Source of the DNA: Desulfobacteraceae bacterium
GTDB taxonomy: Bacteria > Desulfobacterota > Desulfobacteria > Desulfobacterales > SURF-15
Length of the DNA: 15,816 nt
NCBI GenBank assembly: GCA_003599475.1
Contig: QZKK01000258.1
Span: 1 to 15,816 of the forward strand
Direction: 5' to 3'
Position numbers and translations under genes: made by a program. Below the pieces are notes generated by a model, which was given only the letters and a program-made list of their open reading frames with translations, did no database searches and was not told the DNA's origin. This document shows positions 1,149 to 15,816 of the stretch, in pieces (within the stretch, counting starts at the first letter, position 1; every line of letters starts with the position of its first letter).

Positions 1149-1240
1149 GCCACCAAGACACGAAGGCACGAAGAAGAATTATGAAGGCCAAAACCTTATC
1201 AAAAAAATGGATAAACTTCGTGTCTTCGTGCCTTAGTGGC
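1149..1240. repeat. CACGAAG-type intergenic inverted repeat, copy 1
   Basis: The left arm (1149-1173, beginning GCCACCAAGACACGAAG) and right arm (1216-1240, ending CCTTAGTGGC) are imperfect inverted repeats matching at 22 of 25 positions, with 42 nt between them. Related arms occur at 9628-9709 and 14101-14180, so this is a dispersed family. It sits just downstream of the peptidase gene and could act as an mRNA-end hairpin. Confidence 0.8.
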
Positions 1241-1265
1241 AAAGATCGGATTGAAAGAAACACCG

Positions 1266-2279
1266 ATGGAAGCTGCCGAAGCATATAAATTGTCCGACAC
1301 CGATCTTTCCCGGACAGAGGAGATGGGAAGGATCAAATCCGATATCGTATCGGAAATCAAGAAAGTGATCGTGGGCCAGGACAAAGTCATCGAAGAGATC
1401 CTGATCGCGCTCTTCTGCCGCGGCCACTGCCTCCTGGTGGGGGTTCCAGGGCTGGCCAAGACGCTTCTGATCTCGACCCTTGCAGGCATCATGGAGCTCA
1501 ATTACAATCGGGTTCAGTTCACCCCGGACCTGATGCCCTCCGATATCACGGGAACCGATGTCCTCGATGAAGAAGTGGGCAGCAGAAAGCGCCTGTTCCG
1601 TTATATCCGGGGGCCGATCTTCACCAACATCCTGCTTGCAGACGAAATCAATCGAACCCCGCCCAAGACCCAGGCGGCCCTTCTCCAGGCGATGCAGGAG
1701 TATAAGGTGACCGCAGGCGGTGCAACCCACTCCCTGGATCTTCCATTCTTCGTTCTGGCCACCCAGAATCCGATCGAACAGGAAGGGACCTATCCCCTTC
1801 CCGAAGCGCAGCTCGACCGGTTCATGTTCAACATCGAAATCGGCTACCCGTCTTTCGATCAGGAGATCGACATCGTCGCATCGACCACAAGCTCCTACCG
1901 GCCGGCGCTCCGAAAGGTCGTCGATGCCGGAAAGATCCTGGAGATGCAGGATCTGGTCAGAAAGGTTCCCGCATCCTCCCACGTCATCGGTTATGCGGTG
2001 AAACTGGTGCGCGCCTCGCGCCCGAAAGACACAGACGCCCTCTCCTTCATCCGGGAGTGGGCCGAATGGGGGGCCGGCCCCCGCGCATCCCAATATCTCA
2101 TCCTGGCGGCAAAGGCCAGAGCGGTCATGGAGGGCCGGTATGTGGCTTCGACGGAAGACGTTAAAGCCGTGGTGTATCCGATCCTGAGACACCGGATCAT
2201 CGCAAACTTCAAAGCGCAGGCAGAGGGGATCACCTCGCTCGATATGATCGAGCGGCTGCTTCGAGAGGTCTCCCCTTGA
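1266..2279 (+). CDS. MoxR-family AAA+ ATPase
   Basis: A 337-residue MoxR-type AAA+ ATPase, typical in size for the family. Walker A is GVPGLAKT (residues 59-66), Walker B is LLADEINR (about 123-130), and the family-specific ATQNPIEQEGTYPLPEAQ sensor region with the downstream LDRFM is intact. MoxR ATPases act as cytoplasmic chaperones that assemble or activate complexes containing VWA proteins. That fits here: the next genes encode a DUF58 protein and two VWA membrane proteins. I chose ATG 1266. An in-frame GTG at 1236 lies inside the right arm of the upstream repeat and would add repeat-encoded residues; TTG 1251 is a further alternative. None has a strong Shine-Dalgarno. It is the first gene of a five-gene operon, with the next gene starting 19 nt after its stop. 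Confidence 0.95.
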   Translation: MEAAEAYKLSDTDLSRTEEMGRIKSDIVSEIKKVIVGQDKVIEEILIALFCRGHCLLVGVPGLAKTLLISTLAGIMELNYNRVQFTPDLMPSDITGTDVLDEEVGSRKRLFRYIRGPIFTNILLADEINRTPPKTQAALLQAMQEYKVTAGGATHSLDLPFFVLATQNPIEQEGTYPLPEAQLDRFMFNIEIGYPSFDQEIDIVASTTSSYRPALRKVVDAGKILEMQDLVRKVPASSHVIGYAVKLVRASRPKDTDALSFIREWAEWGAGPRASQYLILAAKARAVMEGRYVASTEDVKAVVYPILRHRIIANFKAQAEGITSLDMIERLLREVSP

Positions 2280-2298
2280 AGCGGGTTAGGGGGATGTA

Positions 2299-3213
2299 TT
2301 GAACTATTTCGACCCGAAGGTCCTGGCCGGAGTCAAGAACCTGCATCTCAGGGCGAGATTCCTCGTCGACGGGGTCATGGTGGGAAAGCATGCCTCACAG
2401 GCGAAGGGCTTGAGCGCGGAATTCGAGGAGCACAGGGGATACGTCCCGGGGGACGATACGCGCCACATCGACTGGAAGGCCTATGCGAAATTCGACCGGT
2501 ATTTTGTCCGTGAATACCGTAAGACCACCAACATGAGGGCATACCTCGTCATGGACGCAAGCGCTTCCATGGGCTATGCCTCGAATGGCGTCAGCAAGTT
2601 CGACTACGGCGCCACCCTCTCGGCAGCCCTGGCGTATCTGATGTTGAAGCAGCAGGATGCGGTCGGCATGATTCTTTTTGCCGAAAAAATGGAAAAGATG
2701 ATCCCGCCGAAGACCGCTCACGACCACCTCTTCGCCGTTTTAAAAACCCTCGAAGCCACAAGGCCTCAGGGGGAGACCTCGGTTGCATCGGTGCTGAAGG
2801 AGCTTGCGGCATCCCTGAATGGAAAAGGCCTGAAGGGAAAGGGCTTGATCGTTTTACTCTCGGATCTTCTGGATCCCCGTCCGGATGCCGCAGAGGAGAT
2901 CGCCAAAGGACTGAAACAGCTCAGATCCAGGGGCAGCGAAGTAATCGTATTTCACCTGCTCGACGGGGACGAATTGCGCTTTCCATTCAAGGATCCGGCC
3001 CTTTTTGAAGATATGGAAAGAGACGTAAAGCTCCTTGCCGATCCAAAGGTGCTCCGATCGGCTTATCTAAAGAGGCTCCAGGAGCTCATTGCCCGCTACC
3101 GGAGCGCTTGTCTCTCCCATCGAATCGAGTATTCGCTTTTCGACACATCGGCGGGGCTGGACCGTGCTCTGGTAAGATATCTTGCCTGGAGGCAGAAGTT
3201 GAGGCGGAGGTGA
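2299..3213 (+). CDS. DUF58 domain protein (VWA-like, MoxR partner)
   Basis: A 304-residue DUF58 protein starting at TTG 2299, four bases after an AGGGGGA ribosome binding site; the nearby ATG at 2294 runs straight into a stop. The DUF58 signature is clear: YVPGDDTRHIDWKAYA at about residues 48-63, followed by DRYFVREY. An intact MIDAS-type motif, DASAS, is at residues 86-90, supporting a metal-binding VWA-like fold. No transmembrane segment is evident, so a cytoplasmic, membrane-peripheral role is likely. DUF58 proteins almost always follow a MoxR ATPase gene, as here, and are thought to be substrates or adaptors of that ATPase. The biochemical function is unknown. It precedes the BatA-like gene by 4 nt, implying translational coupling. 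Confidence 0.93.
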   Translation: MNYFDPKVLAGVKNLHLRARFLVDGVMVGKHASQAKGLSAEFEEHRGYVPGDDTRHIDWKAYAKFDRYFVREYRKTTNMRAYLVMDASASMGYASNGVSKFDYGATLSAALAYLMLKQQDAVGMILFAEKMEKMIPPKTAHDHLFAVLKTLEATRPQGETSVASVLKELAASLNGKGLKGKGLIVLLSDLLDPRPDAAEEIAKGLKQLRSRGSEVIVFHLLDGDELRFPFKDPALFEDMERDVKLLADPKVLRSAYLKRLQELIARYRSACLSHRIEYSLFDTSAGLDRALVRYLAWRQKLRRR

Positions 3214-3217
3214 ATCG

Positions 3218-5194
3218 ATGAGTCTTACCTTCATCAGTTCCGTATTGCTTTCCGGCGTCGCTGCGGTGATATTGCCGATCCTCATCCATCGGATCACCAA
3301 AAGACGCACGGTGGTCAGAGCTTTCTCCGCCGTTTACCTCCTGCTGCAGTCCCAGCCGGTTGCCGTCAGGCCCCGGCGGATCAAGCATCTGATGCTTTTG
3401 ATCCTGAGGGTCCTTGCCGTTGCCTCCATTGCTTTGATGATGGCGCAGCCAGTCTTCGTGCGTGCGGGATTCGGCACGCTGCTCAAGGACGGAGCCCAGG
3501 TGTTGATCCTTGATAACTCCTTGAGCATGAGCTTTTCCGAAGACCGCGGCAGGCGATTCGATATGGCAAAGAAGGCGGCAAGAGAAGCCCTGGAGGGCTT
3601 CCGGGGGCAGGTGGCCGTCATCGCTACGGCGGAAAACCGTAGAGGCAATCCGTCCGATCTGCTGTGGATGAGACCGGAATCCGCCCTGAGCCGGCTGGAG
3701 TCGATCCCCCTTTCCTTCGGAGGCAGCCGTACAGTCGATGCCTTCACCTCTGCTTTTCGCCTGCTGAAAGACCTGGAGGTTCCCGGACGGATCCTGGTGA
3801 TCAGCGATATGACCCGCAACGATTGGGCGAAGTTTAATCTTTCCGATTTCGAAACCGTCCCGGATGCAGAGGTCATATTTCTGAGAATCGGGCCTGCTGC
3901 ACGAGATGCCAACTTCTCCGTCAAGCAGGTTCGCCTGGAAACCGGGGGGATCATCGCCGGAGTCACAGAACGGCTCGAAGTGAGTGTTTCGAATCTTTCG
4001 GATCTTGCCGGCAGCCGCATCGTCGAGGCTCACCTTTCCGGAACGAAAACCGATCAGAAGTCGATTACGCTGGAAGCCGGCCGCGAAGGACAGGTTTCTT
4101 TCGATCTGCGGATCGATGACCCGGGATGGATCGAAGGGGAGATCAGGCTCTCCTCCGATCGCCTGTCCTACGATGATATCCACTATTTTCCGCTGAAAGT
4201 AAGAGAAAGAATCGACGTCCTCATCGTCGACGGAAATCCCGGCACCTCGCTCAGGTCGGGCGAAAGCTATTACCTTGCCAGTGCGCTGCGCCCGGCCGCG
4301 CTGCAGGCATCGGCTTTCCTTCCGGAAATAATCACCGAAAGCGAGTTTTCCCGGATGGACCCGCACGCGTACGACGCCCTGTTTGTTCTCAACGTTGCCC
4401 GGCCCGACCCCTACAGGCTCGCCTCCTTTCTGGATGCGGGAAAACCGGTCTTTCTTTTTCTCGGCGATCGCATCGATCCTTCGGCCTATAACCGGCTTCC
4501 ATTTTCCCCCTTTCGGATCCTCGGGCGGATCGAACCGATCGAAACCGTGGGGAAGGCAACGCGAATCGACAGGTTCGATGACGAGTTCAAGTTCCTCCAA
4601 GGGATAATAGAAAGCCTGAAAAAAGCCTCCTTCGGGGCATATTTTAAAATCGAGGGGGCATCGAATCCGATCCTTACCCTCGAAAATGAGGATCCGCTTT
4701 TGGCGGAAGCACAGGTCGGGGAGAGCCGGATGTTTGTTTTTTCTTCGAGCGCCGACCTGGACTGGAACGATCTTCCGCTGACCGCGGCCTATCTTCCGCT
4801 CGTCCGCGGGATGGTCAAGGAAGGTGGCGGATCGGCCGGAACTTCGCTTCCCGAAGGCATCCGGATCGGGGATCCTGCCGGAGAGAAGTTGAAAGGAAGG
4901 CAAGTGAAAGGACCTCCGGGAGGCCCCGGCCTCTACCGGGTGGATGCCGGAGCCGGAGAAATGCAGGGGGTAAACCCCCCCTATGAAGAGTCGGATCTGA
5001 CAAAGATCGATCCCGATTCGCTGGAAAAGAAACTGGCAACCGTTCATGCGACCGTACTCGAATACCGGGAGGGAGACCTGGAGAAGCGGCAAGGCGGGCG
5101 GAAACCGCTCTGGCCGTATCTGCTCGCCTTCCTTCTAGCGGTTCTGGCCGTGGAAACGGTGATCGCAAACGATCTGATAGGGGGCCGGAAGTAG
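3218..5194 (+). CDS. BatA-like membrane protein with VWA domain
   Basis: 658 residues, ATG 3218 preceded by GGAGGTG. The N-terminus has the BatA (aerotolerance-regulator N-terminal) layout: a hydrophobic segment at about 5-25, a short arginine-rich loop, then a second hydrophobic segment at about 57-80. A VWA domain follows with an intact DxSxS MIDAS motif (DNSLS, 99-103). The middle region (about 340-540) has the alternating strands of a glutamine-amidotransferase-like fold (for example VDVLIVDGNPG and ALFVLNVARP), and a final transmembrane helix lies at about 630-650. The VWA part is expected on the periplasmic or outer face between membrane anchors. Known VWA proteins of MoxR operons support metal-dependent protein contacts; the target here is unknown. 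A very long antisense frame over this gene appears to be a codon-bias shadow. Confidence 0.92.
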   Translation: MSLTFISSVLLSGVAAVILPILIHRITKRRTVVRAFSAVYLLLQSQPVAVRPRRIKHLMLLILRVLAVASIALMMAQPVFVRAGFGTLLKDGAQVLILDNSLSMSFSEDRGRRFDMAKKAAREALEGFRGQVAVIATAENRRGNPSDLLWMRPESALSRLESIPLSFGGSRTVDAFTSAFRLLKDLEVPGRILVISDMTRNDWAKFNLSDFETVPDAEVIFLRIGPAARDANFSVKQVRLETGGIIAGVTERLEVSVSNLSDLAGSRIVEAHLSGTKTDQKSITLEAGREGQVSFDLRIDDPGWIEGEIRLSSDRLSYDDIHYFPLKVRERIDVLIVDGNPGTSLRSGESYYLASALRPAALQASAFLPEIITESEFSRMDPHAYDALFVLNVARPDPYRLASFLDAGKPVFLFLGDRIDPSAYNRLPFSPFRILGRIEPIETVGKATRIDRFDDEFKFLQGIIESLKKASFGAYFKIEGASNPILTLENEDPLLAEAQVGESRMFVFSSSADLDWNDLPLTAAYLPLVRGMVKEGGGSAGTSLPEGIRIGDPAGEKLKGRQVKGPPGGPGLYRVDAGAGEMQGVNPPYEESDLTKIDPDSLEKKLATVHATVLEYREGDLEKRQGGRKPLWPYLLAFLLAVLAVETVIANDLIGGRK

Positions 5195-5199
5195 GAGGT

Positions 5200-5350
5200 G
5201 TTCAGTGTTCAGTGTTCAGTGTTCAGGAGGGCGCTGACGATCAAACGAGAGGTTGAACTGAAACCTTCTCTCGTTCCCATGCTCCTGCGTGGAACGCACT
5301 GCCGGCTTTTCTTTCCTGAACGCTGAACACTGAACACTGAACCCTGAACA
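5200..5350. repeat. Opposed arrays of a GTTCAGT heptamer
   Basis: Four tandem heptamers GTTCAGT run from 5200 to 5226, and five reverse-complement heptamers (CTGAACA with variants) run from 5316 to 5350, so the two arrays can pair over about 27 bp. Between them a second hairpin can form from AACGAGAG (5244-5251) and CTCTCGTT (5268-5275). The element fills the only large gap inside the five-gene operon and begins just after the BatA-like stop codon. Confidence 0.8.
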
Positions 5351-5370
5351 CTTTCGATAGGGATGATTGA

Positions 5371-6138
5371 ATGATGGTGATGATATCCAGACGAAATTTT
5401 CTCTTCTTCACCCTGGGGCTGGCCGCTCATCTTTCTTCCGGTCTGAAACTCTCCTACGGCTCCCGGTACCCCCACTTTTTCTTCACCCAGCTCAAATACC
5501 GGAGCGAGGAATGGGATCCAAACCCCCTGTTTCTGGAAGCCATCGTCGAGGAGCTGGAGCTCCGTACGAGCATAGACGCACGCCGGGAAAGACTCGTCAT
5601 GGAACCGACCGACCCCGATCTGTTTTTCAGCCCGTTTTTATACATGGCGGGCCGAAGTGCATTTGAATCCTTCACACGACAGGAAAGGGAGACCCTGAGA
5701 CGATTTCTGACGCATGGGGGATTTCTTTTTGCAGAAAACACGATCGGCGCCAGGGGAGCCGGGTTCGACCGGTCTTTTCGAGAAGAGATGAAAGCGCTTC
5801 TCCCGGAGGCCGAGTTGAAACCGCTTTCTCGTGATCATTCCGTCTACCAGAGCTTTTACCTGATCGAAGGCATCGGCGGCAGACAGCGGGTAAGCCCTTT
5901 CCTGGAAGGTGCCGTCCTCGATGCGTGGACGCCGGTGATCTACTCGCACAACGATCTTTCCGGCGCATGGGCCAGGGACAGGTATGGTAAGTGGGTTCAT
6001 GAGTGCACACCGGGTGGGGAAGCGCAAAGGGAGGCCGCTTTCAAAGACGGAATCAACATCATCGTTTACTCCCTGACTGCAGACTATAAGAAAGATGTAA
6101 TCCACCATCCCTTCATCCAAAAACGACGCAATGTATGA
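5371..6138 (+). CDS. DUF4159 protein with twin-arginine signal
   Basis: 255 residues, DUF4159-type. This family accompanies MoxR/VWA operons and often carries the label of a membrane or exported protein of unknown function. The N-terminus has a twin-arginine motif, SRRNFLF (residues 6-12), followed by a hydrophobic stretch (about 12-28), suggesting Tat export of a folded and possibly cofactor-bearing protein. The characteristic core is visible: a strand-rich start (YPHFFFTQLKY), DPDLFFSPFLYM near 70, and FLTHGGFLFAENT near 110. Start ATG 5371 is chosen from AGGG eight bases upstream; ATG 5374-5383 variants would change only a few residues. The stop overlaps the start of the next gene (ATGA), so the two are translationally coupled. 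The gene is separated from the BatA-like gene by the heptamer repeat arrays. Confidence 0.9.
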   Translation: MMVMISRRNFLFFTLGLAAHLSSGLKLSYGSRYPHFFFTQLKYRSEEWDPNPLFLEAIVEELELRTSIDARRERLVMEPTDPDLFFSPFLYMAGRSAFESFTRQERETLRRFLTHGGFLFAENTIGARGAGFDRSFREEMKALLPEAELKPLSRDHSVYQSFYLIEGIGGRQRVSPFLEGAVLDAWTPVIYSHNDLSGAWARDRYGKWVHECTPGGEAQREAAFKDGINIIVYSLTADYKKDVIHHPFIQKRRNV

Positions 6139-8372
6139 GCATGGAACGGTTCACCTTAAATCCTGTTTTCCCGGTTTGGTTGATCCTGCTTCTCCTGGCA
6201 TCCGGGATTGCCGCAGCTTTTCTCCAGTATGTAAAATTCCGGAGCCGTTTGGGAGAATCGAGGGGGAGGATTCTTTTTCTCCTCCGTATGGCTGCACTCC
6301 TTATGATTTTAACGGTTGCCCTCGATCCTTCCTGGATGTCGCAAACGGAGCATCGGATCGCTCCCTCCATCGCCGTTTTCATGGATACCTCCAAATATAT
6401 GGGACAAGCCGCATCCGATGGAAAAGGCACCCGTCTCGATCAGGCGAAGACGCTTCTTTCGGAAGGCCGGCTGCTTGAATCGCTCGGCAAAAAATTCGAT
6501 GTGACGCTGTATGGTCTCAGCGGTCGAGCCGATCCGCTGAGGCCCTTATCCCCCGGAGATCTGGAACGTATCGAGGCCGGAGGCGATTCCGGAGATCTGT
6601 CGGAGGCGCTTGGAAGACTTGGGGACCGGAAGAACTCCCTTGCGGTTCTGATCAGCGATGGAAACATCCATTGGAACGAAAACCCGAAAGCGCTTCTTCC
6701 CACCCTCACCGTACCGGTCGGAAACCGGGAAGTGTATCGGGACATCCTGATCAAGGAGATCAAGGCCCCGAGCCTTGCATTCAAAGGACGGGAAGCCTCT
6801 ATCGATGTCACCGTAAGAAGCCATGGGTTCCTGGACACTCCCATTCAGTTGCTTTTAAAGGATGGGGAAAACCTGGTCACCCTGAGGGAGATCCGCATTC
6901 AGGCCGATTCCGGCGAATCCGATTCCGGAGAAACGAGGGCCACCCTTTCGTTCACACCGAGTGACGTGGGCCGCAAAAGCCTGTCGATTTCCGTTCCTCA
7001 TCAGATTGGAGAAAGGATCGTCGAAAACAACCGGGTCCACCTCTCCATGGAAGTGACCCGGGACAAGACCCGCATCCTCATGGTCTCGGGAACGCCGAGC
7101 ATGAACTACCGGTTCATGCGCGCCGCACTGAAGAAGGATCCCTCCATCGACTTGCTGTCTTTCGTCATCCTCAGGACCCCTTCGGACGTCCTGCAGGTCC
7201 GCTCGCACGAACAGAGCCTGATCCCTTTCCCGGTGGATACCCTTTTCCTGAAGGAGCTGGCCAATTTCGATCTGGTCGTATTCGATAACTTCAATTACTC
7301 GCTCTATCTGAGCCCGGAACACCTGGAGGGTGTAAGAAATTTTGTAGATTCCGGAGGGGGCTTTGCCGTAATCGGAGGACCGGATCTGTTCAATGAAGGA
7401 ACCCCGGGGCTTTCCCCCATCGCAGAACTGCTTCCCTTTCGATTCGTTGAAGATGAATTCTACCGGCGTGAAACTCCCCTCGGCGTGAAATTGACCCGGA
7501 AAGGCATCCGGCATCCGTTGATGCAGTTCTCCGAAGCGGGCGGGGGTGTGGAGCGCCTCCGGTTCTGGCAGGAGATGCCCCCCGTCGACGGCATCAATCT
7601 GACAGAAGCCAAGAAACCATCGACGATCCTCCTGGAAAGCGCAGGCGGAATTCCCTGGCCGGTTCTCACCGTCTCGGAATATGGAAAGGGGAGGGTGCTG
7701 GCATTGACCACCGATTATGCGTGGAAATGGTACATGGGAAAAGTCGCCAGAAACGAGGGGACGCAAGGATATCTCCGGCTCGTTCACCGGATGGTACGAT
7801 GGCTGACCAAAGACCCGGGAATGCATCCGGTGCAGGTGATCCTTCCGGAATCGACGGGCGCCATCGGAAAACAGATCGATCTGCGAGTCCGCGTCCACGG
7901 GGAGGATTCATCCGATTCATTCGATCTTAAATCCCGTACCGCATCCGGAAAAGCCTCCTTTTCCATTCTAGATCCGGAAGGCGTGGAAGTCGAATGGACG
8001 CTTGGGGCGGCCTCGATACCCGGCGAGCACACGGTCTCTTTCATCCCCAAGAAGGAGGGGATCTATCGGATTCGAATCCAAACTTCCACAGGCGATCTGG
8101 AGGAATCGATTCCTGTAAGCGGACCGTTCGATCGGTTGGATGCCGCCCCCCGGCACGATCGGCTGGAGGCGATCTCTCGGGCGACAGGCGGAAAATTGGT
8201 TACGGAGTCCGGGGACCTTCTCAAAACGATCGAAGAATACGCCCGGCGCGGCGAAAGGCGGTTTATCGAGGAGAAGCGGCTGCCGGTTTGGGCAAACGCT
8301 TACGCAATGGCACTGATCATCGGACTGTTGTCCGCGGAATGGTTTTTCCGGAGACGGTGGGGGCTGGTGTGA
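6135..8372 (+). CDS. VWA / glutamine-amidotransferase-like membrane protein
   Basis: 745 residues, starting at ATG 6135 in a 4-bp overlap with the preceding stop. There are two N-terminal transmembrane segments (about 12-32 and 46-65), then a VWA-like domain whose MIDAS position reads DTSKY (84-88) rather than DxSxS, so metal binding may be lost. Residues about 315-430 resemble a class-I glutamine amidotransferase-like fold (ILMVSGTPSMNYRFMRAAL, LVVFDNFN, GGGFAVIGGPDLF); the nucleophile cysteine of true amidotransferases is not apparent. A C-terminal transmembrane helix lies at about 715-735 and ends in a basic tail. The architecture matches the second large membrane partner of MoxR/DUF58/DUF4159 operons. 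It is probably a structural or adaptor protein in the envelope complex. The exact function is unknown. Confidence 0.9.
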   Translation: MSMERFTLNPVFPVWLILLLLASGIAAAFLQYVKFRSRLGESRGRILFLLRMAALLMILTVALDPSWMSQTEHRIAPSIAVFMDTSKYMGQAASDGKGTRLDQAKTLLSEGRLLESLGKKFDVTLYGLSGRADPLRPLSPGDLERIEAGGDSGDLSEALGRLGDRKNSLAVLISDGNIHWNENPKALLPTLTVPVGNREVYRDILIKEIKAPSLAFKGREASIDVTVRSHGFLDTPIQLLLKDGENLVTLREIRIQADSGESDSGETRATLSFTPSDVGRKSLSISVPHQIGERIVENNRVHLSMEVTRDKTRILMVSGTPSMNYRFMRAALKKDPSIDLLSFVILRTPSDVLQVRSHEQSLIPFPVDTLFLKELANFDLVVFDNFNYSLYLSPEHLEGVRNFVDSGGGFAVIGGPDLFNEGTPGLSPIAELLPFRFVEDEFYRRETPLGVKLTRKGIRHPLMQFSEAGGGVERLRFWQEMPPVDGINLTEAKKPSTILLESAGGIPWPVLTVSEYGKGRVLALTTDYAWKWYMGKVARNEGTQGYLRLVHRMVRWLTKDPGMHPVQVILPESTGAIGKQIDLRVRVHGEDSSDSFDLKSRTASGKASFSILDPEGVEVEWTLGAASIPGEHTVSFIPKKEGIYRIRIQTSTGDLEESIPVSGPFDRLDAAPRHDRLEAISRATGGKLVTESGDLLKTIEEYARRGERRFIEEKRLPVWANAYAMALIIGLLSAEWFFRRRWGLV

Positions 8373-9627: not shown

Positions 9628-9709
9628 ATCCACCAAGGGCACCAAGGGACAAGTGAAGGCAAACCCCTCATGAACTGTTTTTTCGTGCCCCTTCGTGCTC
9701 TTTGTGGAT
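9628..9709. repeat. CACGAAG-type inverted repeat, copy 2 (overlaps glycogen synthase end)
   Basis: The left arm ATCCACCAAGGGCACC... (9628-9653) pairs with the right arm ending TTTGTGGAT (to 9709) at about 21 of 26 positions. It lies between two convergent genes and could serve as a two-way terminator hairpin. The right arm is inside the coding sequence of the minus-strand gene. Confidence 0.75.
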
Positions 9710-10933
9710 GGCGTACGTTCGGATCAGCCGCTCGTAGAAGTCGAGGGTCTTGCGGGCGATCGCCTTCCAGCTGAAACGCTCCTCTATCCGCAGGCGCGCA
9801 TCTCTACTCATGATTTCCATGCGTTTCGGATCGCTGAGGAGTCCGTCGATCGCCCCGGCCAGATCCCGCGCAAAACCGGCAGGATCCGCGGGTTCGGGGT
9901 CCGATTCGCTCTTGGGTCTGAACCGAACCAGCCTTCCGGTTTTCCCGTCTTCTACAGCCTCCGGTATCCCGCCGACTGCCGAAGCGACAACAGGCGTTCC
10001 GCATGCCATGGCCTCCAGATTGATGAGACCGAAAGGCTCGTAGATGGATGGGCAGACAAAAACGGATGCATGGCTGTAAACGCTAATGAGATCTTCCCGT
10101 GGAACCGTCTCGGATACCCATATCACCGGGTTTGCGGCGTTCGCCCGAACCTCTTCGATTTTTTGGGAGACCTCGCGCAGGTATTGTTCCGTGTCCGGAG
10201 AACTGACGCAAAGAACCGCCTGCACCCCCGACTTCAAATACCGGATCGCCTCGAGGAAATGAAGGATCCCTTTCTGTCGGGTGATCCGCGAGACCATCAG
10301 AACGTAAGGTCTCGCCGGATCGATCCCGTATCGTGCAATCGCCCGGGGATCGGACTTGGGGAGATATTCATGATCGTCGATTCCGTTATGGATGACCTCG
10401 ACCTTCTCCCCGGGTACGCCGTAAAGCCGCTTGACATCCTGCTTCATGGACTTAGAAACTGCGATCACCCCGTCTGCGTTTTGGTAGGCCGTCTTCTCCA
10501 GCCAGGTGGAAGCATGATATCCGGTTCCCAGTTGCTCTTCCTTCCATGGCCTGTGAGGCTCCAGGGAATGGGTGGTGAGCACCAGGGGAGCGCGAAGCAT
10601 CTGCTTGAGCAGGCAGCCGGCCAAATGGGTGTACCAGGTATGGCAATGGATGATTTCTGCCTGGCCGACTTTCCCGACCATGGCAACATCGTGAAGAAGG
10701 GTATCCATCAGATTTCTGTGGCGTTCATCCCGAACCGGAAGCGTGACACGGGGCTGCAGTCCGATGATGGAGCTGTTTCTTGCAACCTTCTGCTGGTCTC
10801 CGAAACAATAGACTTCGATTTCATGGCTTCCTCCGTCGGCACGGGACAGTTCCCGTATCAGATAATCCACGTGCACGCCTGCCCCTCCGTAAACATAAGG
10901 CGGACATTCCTTCGTCAGAATTGCGATTTTCAA
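9668..10933 (-). CDS. glgA: GT4 glycogen/maltoside synthase, actinobacterial GlgA type
   Basis: 421 residues, TTG start at 10933 with AAGGGGG six bases upstream. The N-terminus KECPPYVYGGAGVH (8-21) is the sugar-donor loop typical of the GT4 glycogen synthase group found in actinobacteria (TIGR02149-like; that clade includes GlgM, which makes maltose-1-phosphate from ADP-glucose). The catalytic E-x7-E motif EPFGLINLE is at 299-307, followed by ACGTPVVASAVGGIPE. It therefore probably transfers glucose from a nucleotide sugar to an alpha-glucan or glucose-1-phosphate in the cytoplasm; the donor and acceptor cannot be fixed from sequence. The last ten or so residues before the stop (IHKEHEGARK...) are encoded by an intergenic repeat arm. 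It stands alone on the minus strand, divergent from dksA. Confidence 0.9.
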   Translation of the reverse strand: MKIAILTKECPPYVYGGAGVHVDYLIRELSRADGGSHEIEVYCFGDQQKVARNSSIIGLQPRVTLPVRDERHRNLMDTLLHDVAMVGKVGQAEIIHCHTWYTHLAGCLLKQMLRAPLVLTTHSLEPHRPWKEEQLGTGYHASTWLEKTAYQNADGVIAVSKSMKQDVKRLYGVPGEKVEVIHNGIDDHEYLPKSDPRAIARYGIDPARPYVLMVSRITRQKGILHFLEAIRYLKSGVQAVLCVSSPDTEQYLREVSQKIEEVRANAANPVIWVSETVPREDLISVYSHASVFVCPSIYEPFGLINLEAMACGTPVVASAVGGIPEAVEDGKTGRLVRFRPKSESDPEPADPAGFARDLAGAIDGLLSDPKRMEIMSRDARLRIEERFSWKAIARKTLDFYERLIRTYAIHKEHEGARKNSS

Positions 10934-12180: not shown

Positions 12181-12275
12181 CTAAAGCGCATGAGCGTGTT
12201 GAATCCGGTTATCCGTTGGGATTTGTACGATTTCATTTTCACGGCGGTTTGCCGTTTTTGATGGGGAGGACAGGA

Positions 12276-13427
12276 GTGCAGAACTTATCCAAGATGAAAA
12301 AGGATGCCTACTCGGCTGTGATTCCGGCTGCGGGATTCGGCTCCCGCATGGGGCATTTGAAGCCTCTGCTGCCGCTCGACGGCAGGACGGCGGTGGAGCG
12401 ACTCATTTCGATTTTCAGGGAAAACGGTATCGAAGACATCTATGTCGTAGTAGGCCACAGGCAGTCTGAAATCATCCGTATCCTCGAATCCGCCGGAGTC
12501 CAAATCGTCGAGAATCCATGGTTTCAGGAAGGCATGTTCAGCTCGATTGTCCAAGGCGTCCGCCGCATGGCTTCGGACACGGATGCTTTCTTTATCCTGC
12601 CGGCGGACATTCCGCTGGTCCGTCCGGTGACCATCCGGCTGCTGCTGTCCGAAAACAAGAAGAATCCGGGCAAAATCGTGCACCCCTGTTTCCAGGGCAA
12701 GCGGGGACATCCACCCCTGATCCCCGGAGAGTTGATGGATCCCATTCTCAAGGATCGATCCGAAGGGGGCCTCAGAAGCTTTCTAGAAGAGCACCGGCAT
12801 CTGGCTGTCGATCTTGAAGTGCCGGACCGGAATATCCTCTTCGATCTTGACGATCCGGAAGACTACAGAGAGGCTTTATCCCGGCTGCCTTCCTATGATG
12901 TGCCTACTCCTGAGGAGTGCGAGGTTCTGCTGACCCGCATGCATCCGGCTTCGGATCTTGTGGTCCGGCACTCCCGAAGAGTGTCCAAGGTGGCCGAAGT
13001 CATTGGAAACGCGCTGATTCAGTCAGGAGTCGCTCTCGATCCGGCTCTGATCCGTGCTGCCGCCCTTCTGCACGACATCGCGAAAGGAGAAAGAAATCAC
13101 GCGGAGAAAGGGGCCGCCCTGCTGCGGCGGATGCAATTTCACAGGGTGGCCGATATCGTTGCCCGCCATACGGAGTTGCCGCAACCGGAAGATGGGGAAA
13201 TCCGGGAGGCGGAACTGCTCTACCTGGCCGATAAATTCGTAGCAGAGGAACGGGTGGTCTCTTTGGAAGAGCGTTTCCGGCAGTCAAAAGATCGAGTGCC
13301 GACAAATCCGGTTGCACGCGAAAATATCCGGCGACGATGCGAAGCCGCGGCATCGGTGAAACGACGCATAGAAAAGCGGCTCTTGCTTTCACTGGATGAG
13401 CTCCTGCTTCCGCAGAGGGAAAAGTGA
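12276..13427 (+). CDS. MobA-like NTP transferase fused to HD domain (DVU_1551-type)
   Basis: 383 residues from GTG 12276, which has GGAGGA five bases upstream; in-frame TTG 12216, ATG 12261 and ATG 12294 lack comparable ribosome sites. The N-terminal half is a nucleotidyltransferase: AAGFGSRMGHLKPLL (18-32) is the nucleotide-binding loop and LPADIPLVRP (about 108-117) carries the metal aspartate, similar to MocA-type molybdenum-cofactor cytidylyl/guanylyltransferases. The C-terminal half is an HD-type phosphohydrolase, with H232, the HD pair at 266-267 (LLHDIAK), H275 and H298. This fusion resembles the family named after Desulfovibrio DVU_1551, associated with molybdenum hydroxylases. The nucleotide and acceptor are not certain. 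It overlaps the phosphatase gene that follows by 4 bases (GTGA). Confidence 0.87.
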   Translation: MQNLSKMKKDAYSAVIPAAGFGSRMGHLKPLLPLDGRTAVERLISIFRENGIEDIYVVVGHRQSEIIRILESAGVQIVENPWFQEGMFSSIVQGVRRMASDTDAFFILPADIPLVRPVTIRLLLSENKKNPGKIVHPCFQGKRGHPPLIPGELMDPILKDRSEGGLRSFLEEHRHLAVDLEVPDRNILFDLDDPEDYREALSRLPSYDVPTPEECEVLLTRMHPASDLVVRHSRRVSKVAEVIGNALIQSGVALDPALIRAAALLHDIAKGERNHAEKGAALLRRMQFHRVADIVARHTELPQPEDGEIREAELLYLADKFVAEERVVSLEERFRQSKDRVPTNPVARENIRRRCEAAASVKRRIEKRLLLSLDELLLPQREK

Positions 13428-14380: not shown

Positions 14381-14956
14381 TTGATTAAAAATCTTGTTCT
14401 TGAAAACAGAAGCTACCGCAGGTACGAGGAAAATTTTCCCGTAAGTATGGAGACATTGAGAGAACTTGTGGATTTAGGCCGAATTTCCTCTTCCGGGGCA
14501 AACAAACAGCCCTTGAAGTACGTTCTTTCGTGCAGGTCTGAAACCAACGACCGGATCTTCGATCAACTCTCCTGGGCGGGTGCGCTGAAAGATTGGCCGG
14601 GCCCTGAAAAGGGGGAAAGGCCTGCTGCATATATTGTCATCCTGGGGGATAGTGCTATCGGAAAAGCGGGCATCGATCACGGCATTGCGGCCACCAATAT
14701 CCTGCTCGGTGCAGTAGAAAAGGGATTGGGGGGCTGCATGCTGGGAACCATCAAACGGGATTCCCTGCGCGAGCACCTCGGTATCGATGAGCGGTTTGAA
14801 ATCCTGCTGGTTCTGGCCATCGGAAAACCGAAGGAAGTCGTTCAACTGGAAACGGCCGAAAATGGCGCCGCCACCACTTACTACCGGGATCCGAAACAGA
14901 TCCATCACGTGCCCAAAAGAAAGCTTGAAGATGTTATCATCTGCCAATTCGCATGA
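14381..14956 (+). CDS. Nitroreductase-family flavoprotein
   Basis: 191 residues, TTG start at 14381 with AAGGAAAGGAG ending six bases upstream. The N-terminal ENRSYRRYEE is the FMN-phosphate-binding start of nitroreductase-fold proteins, followed by GANKQPLKYVL (about 39-49), IDHGIAATNILLGAVEKGLGGCMLG (the dimer-core helix and flavin contact, about 103-125) and LVLAIGKPKE near 145-155. It probably binds FMN and uses NAD(P)H or a low-potential donor in the cytoplasm; the physiological substrate is unknown, as for most of this family. It is a stand-alone gene, followed after 151 bp by the DsbA-family selenoprotein candidate on the same strand. Both being redox proteins may be significant, but a shared transcript is not shown. 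Confidence 0.88.
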   Translation: MIKNLVLENRSYRRYEENFPVSMETLRELVDLGRISSSGANKQPLKYVLSCRSETNDRIFDQLSWAGALKDWPGPEKGERPAAYIVILGDSAIGKAGIDHGIAATNILLGAVEKGLGGCMLGTIKRDSLREHLGIDERFEILLVLAIGKPKEVVQLETAENGAATTYYRDPKQIHHVPKRKLEDVIICQFA

Positions 14957-14973
14957 AGCATCAAGCCTTCTTG

Positions 14974-14997
14974 GATTGCGATGCAGAGGATGCAATC
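14974..14997 (+). terminator. Weak hairpin after the nitroreductase gene
   Basis: GATTGC (14974-14979) and GCAATC (14992-14997) pair, with loop bases that can extend the pairing, starting 17 nt after the stop. It is followed by ATTTCC rather than a clean T-run, so this is only a possible terminator. Confidence 0.25.
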
Positions 14998-15107
14998 ATT
15001 TCCGCCAAGCGTTCAGTGGTAAACAGACTCAAGGTTCAGAGCTGCGGTTGAATCTTATAACGCTGAACCCGTAAACGGCTACAAATTCTGAAAATAGGAG
15101 CAGTAAA

Positions 15108-15674
15108 GTGCGGGATCTCCCCTCATTGGAAATTTTTTCGGATTACACCTGACCCTATTGCTATTCCGTTACCGTGAGTATCGAACGGATATTGCAGGAA
15201 TTCGAAGTGACGATCCGGTGGGTCGCATACCCCCTGAATCCGTATCAACCTGGAGGGTTCCAGATGCGTTTTTCACCGGATTCTGCGTACGACCCCGCCT
15301 CCATAACAGAGAAAACCACCCAAACCCGAGATGCACAGGAGCTCACCAAGTGGGCGGAGTCCAAAGGAAAAGGCGAATCCTTCCGCGCCGCGCTTTGGAA
15401 TGCGATTTATTCAAAGCACCAGGATATCGGCCGTCCGGAAACCCTTCGGGATGCGGCCGCCTCCGCCGGTCTTCCGGAAGATGAAGCCGCAGAAATCCTT
15501 TCGGATAGAACTTTCAAAGAAGCAGTCGACGCCGACTGGAAGCGGTCCCTCGAGATCGATCCGGAATGTGTCCCCAGCGTTTTGCTCGGTGGAGAGCTTC
15601 TCGTGAATCCACAGGGATACGACCAAATCGAAGAGCTGATGGAAAGACATCGGATCAAGCGCCGCGTGAGGTAG
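15108..15674 (+). CDS. DsbA/FrnE-family thiol oxidoreductase, predicted selenoprotein (UPYC active site)
   Basis: 188 residues if the in-frame TGA at codon 15 is read as selenocysteine. GTG 15108 has a strong ribosome site, AGGAG, seven bases upstream, and an in-frame TAA at 15072 limits any longer start. Residues 7-14 (LEIFSDYT) are the first thioredoxin-fold strand of DsbA/FrnE proteins, which normally continues C-P-x-C; here it reads U15-P-Y-C18. After it come the helical insertion, a second conserved cysteine and the cis-proline motif (C154-V-P156-S), then GGELLVNPQGYDQIEELM, typical of FrnE/2-hydroxychromene isomerase-like proteins. No signal peptide, so cytoplasmic. It would catalyse thiol-disulfide or related redox exchange. 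An internal GTG at 15174 gives only a 166-residue fragment lacking the active site. The alternative is a nonsense mutation of TGC, but the 173 codons after the TGA are intact. Confidence 0.85.
15150..15152 (+). other. In-frame TGA, predicted selenocysteine codon
   Basis: The TGA replaces the N-terminal active-site cysteine codon of the CxxC motif, the position where selenocysteine is found in many redox selenoproteins. It is the only stop in the frame between 15108 and 15671. Confidence 0.8.
15153..15194 (+). promoter_or_regulatory. Candidate bacterial SECIS element
   Basis: CCGT (15172-15175) and ACGG (15085+100 = 15185-15188) form the upper stem around a 9-nt apical loop, GAGTATCGA, whose first base is G. 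The stem extends below through U70-A91 and A71-U90 (last two digits of position) past a bulged A, with C67-G94 further down. The loop starts 23 nt after the TGA, within the roughly 16-37 nt expected of bacterial SECIS elements. A competing stem, TCCGTT/AACGGA (15165-15170 with 15184-15189), is also possible. It overlaps coding sequence, as bacterial SECIS elements do. Confidence 0.6.
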
Positions 15675-15741
15675 CTTAGAGACTTACTACAAGCTGGAGC
15701 CGGGTGTCCATATGGCTTTGAACCGAAAAAGCGAGCGCATT

Positions 15742-15761
15742 CCCCGCTGCTTGCGGCGGGG
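15742..15761. repeat. CCCCGC...GCGGGG hairpin repeat near window end
   Basis: CCCCGCTG and CGGCGGGG pair (one G-T) around a CTTG tetraloop. It is flanked by direct AGCGAGCG copies (about 15730 and 15763). The last bases of the window, GATTCCCTGCAGC, look like the beginning of a related unit that runs off the edge. It lies 68 bp after the selenoprotein stop and could end its transcript. Confidence 0.55.
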
Positions 15762-15816
15762 TTAGCGAGCGAATCTAAATAGATAGAATTCCTTACGGAG
15801 GAAGATTCCCTGCAGC

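Follow-up and report, generated by a model that had tools for sequence, protein, structure and literature searches.

Our analysis indicated that a gene at positions 15108-15674 on the forward strand of the window, that is, the whole stretch of 15,816 nucleotides analysed here, most likely codes for a DsbA/FrnE-family selenoprotein. The gene contains an in-frame TGA at 15150-15152, which is predicted to specify selenocysteine (Sec) 15 of a U-P-Y-C active site, and we hold this reading with high confidence on the comparative evidence given below. An AGGAG resembling a ribosome-binding site (15096-15100) was found 7 bases ahead of the GTG start codon (15108-15110), which opens a run of 14 codons ending in SDYT. 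These are followed by the TGA, 173 further codons and a TAG stop (15672-15674). When the TGA is read as Sec, the gene is complete and its translation of 188 residues runs VRDLPSLEIFSDYT-U-PYC..., so that the active site becomes SDYT-U-PYC; the frame holds this single TGA and no further stop up to the TAG. Cys18, which is the second residue of the U-x-x-C motif and the resolving one, is encoded at 15159-15161. The start with its AGGAG, the 14 codons, the TGA, the kept second cysteine and the open frame had all been listed by an earlier sequence-only reading, and all are present.

Translation with table 11 gives an ORF of 166 aa from an internal GTG at 15174 (15174-15674, forward strand), which is without the active site. 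The database entry P0002 is exactly this stump, as the sequence-only reading had expected of standard annotation. A search of a 5.8-billion-protein set returned 66 hits including the window's own stump; its reach covers relatives sharing short words with the query, and more distant full-length Cys forms lie beyond it. Of the 65 other hits, 61 begin downstream of the active site at varying start points, and such widespread truncation is what a conserved in-frame TGA would be expected to produce. The remaining four (P0003-P0006), with 53-60% identity to the window protein, cover the site and have W at the U15 position; LEIFSDYT is identical in P0003, P0004, P0005 and the window. This W probably represents a TGA in the DNA that was rendered as Trp by the gene finder of one source, as judged from two pairs: P0006 is 88% identical to P0012 and P0005 is 93% identical to P0013, and both P0012 and P0013 are listed as starting past the site. 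Altogether, the window clade has 15 database entries including the window's own, 11 without the active site and four with W. The more distant P0019-P0067 (32-48% identity) appeared in the search only as stumps lacking the active site, while their genomic relatives have UPWC; these stumps are a family-wide annotation error. Among plasmids, the 33 records found were all below 60% identity (24-29% among the ten matches listed), and none of the 39 pattern matches obtained with the close group in viral contigs was a relative.

We then examined the codon at this site in genomic DNA. A scan of 84,980 species genomes, with patterns lying outside the active site, gave 162 relatives, of which the best 80 (31-42% identity) were used; being the nearest of the 162, these 80 loci form a sample that leans to the window's subfamily. 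In these best 80 of 162 loci the U15 codon is TGA in 76, TGC in three (L066, L067 and L073) and TGG in one. The TGA loci span several phyla by record title, and the codons upstream of the TGA are conserved among relatives. Since homology to relatives extends to the segment ahead of the TGA and the TGA occupies the same codon in 76 of the 80 loci, the observation goes beyond chance. The uniform 14 codons ahead of the TGA are partly built in, as the script took the start codon nearest 15 codons before it. The sequence-only reading had proposed to look for Cys homologues with C opposite the TGA; such homologues were found in the three TGC loci and in the CPWC of a FrnE structure (5cnw). The nearest genomic locus, L001, comes from a MAG whose record is titled Desulfobacterales and shows 42-47% identity to the window protein, depending on the program. 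Loci L081-L100 are outside the 80; at least L081, L082, L091 and L092 share their genomes with L001, L003, L006 and L002, and the stretch of L095 contains no active-site motif.

Of 395 genomes drawn from the phylum of L001, 99 had a match. Among the matches listed, many rows covering the site contain one TGA, while some, such as those of G403, G052, G310 and G298, contain none. This indicates that Cys or other forms also occur there. Seven other genomes (G188, G257, G337, G042, G080, G374 and G174) have DsbA-like matches with 26-29% identity and one in-frame TGA, which on sequence are perhaps further Sec-DsbA subfamilies.

A SECIS-type hairpin follows the TGA. In the register of the family it occupies 15165-15185 in the window (forward strand), with arms at 15165-15172 and 15178-15185 and the loop CGTGA at 15173-15177. 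The alignment of 54 bases from the TGA is gap-free and contains 77 sequences (74 distinct), and its hairpin consensus is Y-TCAGTAC-[CGGGC or CGTGC]-GTATTGA-R. Over this family hairpin 92.6% of the cells are paired. Changes on both sides were found in five of the eight pairs (42 such cells), for example C-G/U-A at 16/36, A-U/G-C/U-A at 19/33 and U-A/C-G at 21/31. None of 500 shuffles scored as high for cells paired, cells changed or covariation score, 3/500 did so for pairs changed and 6/500 for further pair types. The covariation score was 0.184; shuffles averaged 0.097 and slid versions gave 0.013-0.145. RNAalifold without a supplied structure recovered seven of the eight hairpin pairs. Synonymous codons in 76 relatives are nearly frozen in the 3' arm (Arg CGT 68/69, Ile ATT 63/64) and also over portions of the 5' arm (Ser AGT 47/49, Leu CTC 41/41). 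In contrast, the later R.AQEL.KWAE motif, present in 36 of the 76, has a codon entropy of 1 to 2 bits at nine of its 11 positions.

The window hairpin itself is the weakest link. In the family register six of its eight pairs are standard, the mismatches being C.A at 17/35 and U.U at 20/32, the latter common to the window and L001; at 19/33 the window has G-C where most relatives have A-U. Its own best fold uses another register (15165-15189) with a different loop, the hairpin alone giving -5.4 kcal/mol, and the 51 nt fold has -10.3 kcal/mol with a z-score of -0.94. The bacterial SECIS rules, as given in the consulted part of a recent review (PMC13188914), ask for a loop of 3-9 nt, an upper stem of 4-16 bp, a G among the first two bases of the loop, a distance of 16-37 nt from the UGA and an MFE of -7.5 or lower. 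The window agrees with them (loop CGTGA with G as its second base, a distance of 20 nt to the UGA, -10.3 kcal/mol for 51 nt) in the family register with its two mismatches, while the MFE fold is in the other register. On the window alone the hairpin is not convincing, and its support is the covariation in the family. An Rfam search of 14950-15816 gave no match. To our knowledge, Rfam holds no general model for bacterial SECIS.

Sec machinery was searched for in the genomes of relatives. With TIGR00475 above its NCBIfam cut-off as the criterion, SelB was found in 32 of 36 genomes with the TGA gene and in 0 of 4 whose locus has another codon at the site (Fisher p 8e-4). The 32/36 combines 11/13 in a first set and 23/26 in a second, with three genomes common to both. 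The four TGA genomes without SelB above the cut-off (G002, G011, G422 and G425) are all MAGs by title, and SelB of G421 is barely above it (243.7 versus 242.25 bits). tRNA-Sec, counted only above 60 bits, was found in 11/13 TGA genomes and 0/4 others. Weaker matches of about 30-50 bits occur several per genome, and 5/14 controls pass the gathering score, so matches below 60 bits were left uncounted; by the gathering score alone the figure would be 14/17. Among genomes titled as Alphaproteobacteria, SelB was present in 8/9 TGA carriers versus 14/96 from the class of G016 (p 9e-6); this set includes Rhodospirillales and Filomicrobium, and its classes are taken from record titles, which are possibly wrong for some MAGs. 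In the phylum of L001, SelB is near universal (52/59) and does not discriminate: it was found in 23/25 genomes with TGA rows, 11/14 with stop-free matches and 18/20 without a match. The genome of L001 has the TGA gene, SelB and tRNA-Sec together. That of L002 (G002) has the TGA gene and a tRNA-Sec of 74 bits without SelB above the cut-off, and is probably incomplete.

One locus of the 80, L004 (2431-3048), carries TGG as its active-site codon, followed by an intact hairpin of the SECIS type. No SelB above the cut-off and no strong tRNA-Sec match were found in its genome, and its sister L035 has TGA and SelB. It looks as if Sec was lost recently at this locus, or as if the sequence contains an error. 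The contrast in SelB between the TGA genomes and the four with TGC or TGG makes Sec loss in the window family testable, with the limit that SelB is also present in genomes that have stop-free matches (the 11/14 above).

Taken together, the conserved TGA, the Cys homologues, the covarying hairpin, the frame free of decay and a Sec machinery found in most relatives whose genomes were tested support the reading of the TGA as Sec that had been proposed from the sequence. Three other explanations were weighed. It is very improbable that the TGA arose through faulty sequencing or assembly, or that it is a nonsense mutation marking the decay of a DsbA gene of the Cys type. The exact gene is known from one contig only, and the TGG of L004, in a genome without detected SelB, suggests that codon loss may happen in the family. 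An isolated error or decay would, however, leave unexplained why TGA stands at the same codon in loci of several phyla and why a covarying hairpin follows it. Frame decay was looked for and none was seen in the window frame; there is no second stop, identity to the four relatives bearing the site is 53-60%, and the codon-position G+C of the gene lies inside the range of the neighbour genes.

That the TGA is a true stop and the standard annotation of a 166-aa protein right appears less probable still, even though an ORF from GTG 15174 exists and equals P0002. Such a protein would lack the first strand of the fold along with its catalytic motif, whereas an AGGAG precedes 15108, the upstream codons are conserved and most other hits are equally truncated with varying starts. 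The least probable explanation is that TGA is read as tryptophan, by a code 4 type or by suppression, to give a WPYC protein. It has in its favour the W listed in P0003-P0006 and the TGG of L004. TGA is, however, an ordinary stop in 10 of the 14 window genes taken as real, so that the genome is not one in which TGA means Trp, and it is the terminal stop in 30 of 81 family genes (the 80 loci and the window). A tryptophan would also remove the nucleophile and make the SECIS-type hairpin unneeded, and the pairs P0006/P0012 and P0005/P0013 point instead to an artefact of the genetic code used by a gene finder. We rejected all three and retain Sec as the reading of this codon.

The proposed DsbA/FrnE-like identity was borne out by domain and fold. 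The protein matched PF01323 (DSBA) over residues 7-177 (8.3e-21, 75.1 bits versus a cut-off of 25.6). An AlphaFold2 model with residue 15 as Cys had pLDDT 85 and pTM 0.82, residues 51-61 being unreliable. It places a strand at 6-11, a helix from 16 directly behind residue 15, and Pro156 ahead of a strand at 157-160. The five top PDB fold matches were all FrnE structures (E 6e-9 to 2e-8, TM 0.72-0.75 over the query), and their rmsd of 7.5-7.8 indicates that the domains are set differently. Next came YjbH-Spx complexes, SCO1869, a Nitrosomonas protein, kappa GST and DsbA-type proteins. No selenoprotein model of NCBIfam recognised the window protein at E 0.001, and the NCBIfam DsbA model gave 19 bits against a cut-off of 279. 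By alignment and model, Cys154-Val155-Pro156 (15567-15575, forward strand) corresponds to the conserved loop of the DsbA fold whose proline we take to be the cis-Pro. Besides Sec15, Cys18 and Cys154 are the only cysteines of the protein, which ends at 188. Cys154 (15567-15569) stands two residues before the conserved Pro156 and could interact with the active site; alignments A1 and A3 have Tyr at this position in 13 of 14 close relatives and Phe in P0014.

Strand 1 starts at residue 6 and the protein has no leader peptide, which suggests a cytoplasmic location. SelB and tRNA-Sec, guided by the hairpin directly 3', would insert Sec at UGA 15150-15152. In the cytoplasm, the U15 selenolate would either attack a disulfide or become oxidised by one, and Cys18 would close a U15-Cys18 selenenylsulfide, which thioredoxin or glutathione may reduce again. 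The predicted role is thus that of a fast thiol-disulfide reductase or isomerase rather than a periplasmic oxidase.

The gene neighbourhood gave no operon clue to the substrate, as no neighbour recurs beyond a largest shared cluster of 8/81 loci (the 80 and the window); none of the window genes fell in the 22 largest neighbour clusters (6 kb on each side, ORFs of at least 90 aa). Elsewhere in the window, an operon-like run at 1236-8372 encodes a MoxR ATPase, a DUF58/vWA protein, a BatA-like vWA protein, a DUF4159 protein and a GATase1-like large protein. A MobA-like nucleotidyltransferase fused with an HD domain lies at 12216-13427, and a glycosyltransferase at 9668-10933 has a best identity of 58%, with matches below 1e-100 in 10/297 genomes of L001's phylum.

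Phylogenetic analysis placed the window and 14 close proteins in one clade (100/100), with L001 as sister (100/99). The tree included 14 of the 16 close proteins, P0013 and P0018 being left out, and L014 was dropped because its gene is cut at the contig end. In this clade the segment leading from strand 2 to the helical domain is shorter, the motif is of the UPYC type and the loop reads VPSxLL...NPQ. The motif is UPYC in the window and, provided that their W stands for TGA, would be UPFC or UPYC in P0003-P0006; it is UPWC in the other loci, and the loop of L001 is IPSLML...NPQ. The three Cys forms group together and adjoin Sec forms. With a root placed only by midpoint, it is likely but short of shown that the Sec state came first. 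A wider interpretation has, in our judgement, about an even chance of being right: the window would belong to a distinct short UPYC/UPFC Sec-DsbA subfamily, within a broader FrnE-like group in which Sec, and not Cys, is the standing and probably ancestral state across several phyla, and which has been largely hidden because annotation removed the active site from almost all of the database copies found.

Selenocysteine-containing DsbA-like proteins have been predicted before. The sequence-only reading had mentioned such predictions from marine metagenomes, and the consulted part of a 2005 study of the Sargasso Sea does describe them (COG2761, UxxC, nine sequences; PMC1088965). In the available passages of the other sources, DsbA 1, 2 and 3 were predicted in GOS (PMC2398784), four entries were given for bacterial genomes in 2006, with hosts including Anaeromyxobacter, Desulfovibrio and Desulfotomaculum (PMC1794560), and a 2026 review lists a DsbA-like protein form 1 with PF01323 and UxxC (PMC13188914); those of PMC12013277 contain no mention of Dsb. 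The literature searched, mostly outside subscription journals and represented by passages, contained no account of a short UPYC clade or of wholesale truncation at the active site. Our analysis corrects a gene whose database entry is missing its catalytic site, and the same loss, or a W in its place, affects all 65 other hits of the protein search. A predicted selenoprotein family for which these passages describe no biochemistry gains a clade, and the alignment with its covarying SECIS could serve as the basis for a search model.

Compared with known systems, the window protein shares with classical DsbA of the E. coli type the thioredoxin fold with a helical insert, the CxxC-type site and the cis-Pro loop. 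It differs from the exported DsbA in the absence of a leader peptide, the low score against the DsbA model (19 versus 279 bits) and Sec at the position of the first Cys. FrnE of Deinococcus radiodurans (5cnw) was the top PDB sequence match (4e-9), its C-P-W-C-Y aligning against U-P-Y-C-Y of the window; it has Cys for Sec and a longer chain (260 aa in the entry). In FrnE of the Deinococcus type, a C-terminal extension carries another cysteine motif. The window protein has neither the Cys-type CxxC nor this C-terminal motif, only Sec15 and cysteines 18 and 154. With the Sec-DsbA proteins, as described in the available passages (PMC1088965, PMC2398784, PMC13188914), it shares PF01323, U-x-x-C, an in-frame TGA with a downstream hairpin, and widespread Cys homologues. 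Among the loci compared here, its clade is set apart by the UPYC motif, short segment and VPSxLL...NPQ loop. The window gene is thus real and well supported, and represents a distinct clade within the already predicted Sec-DsbA family.
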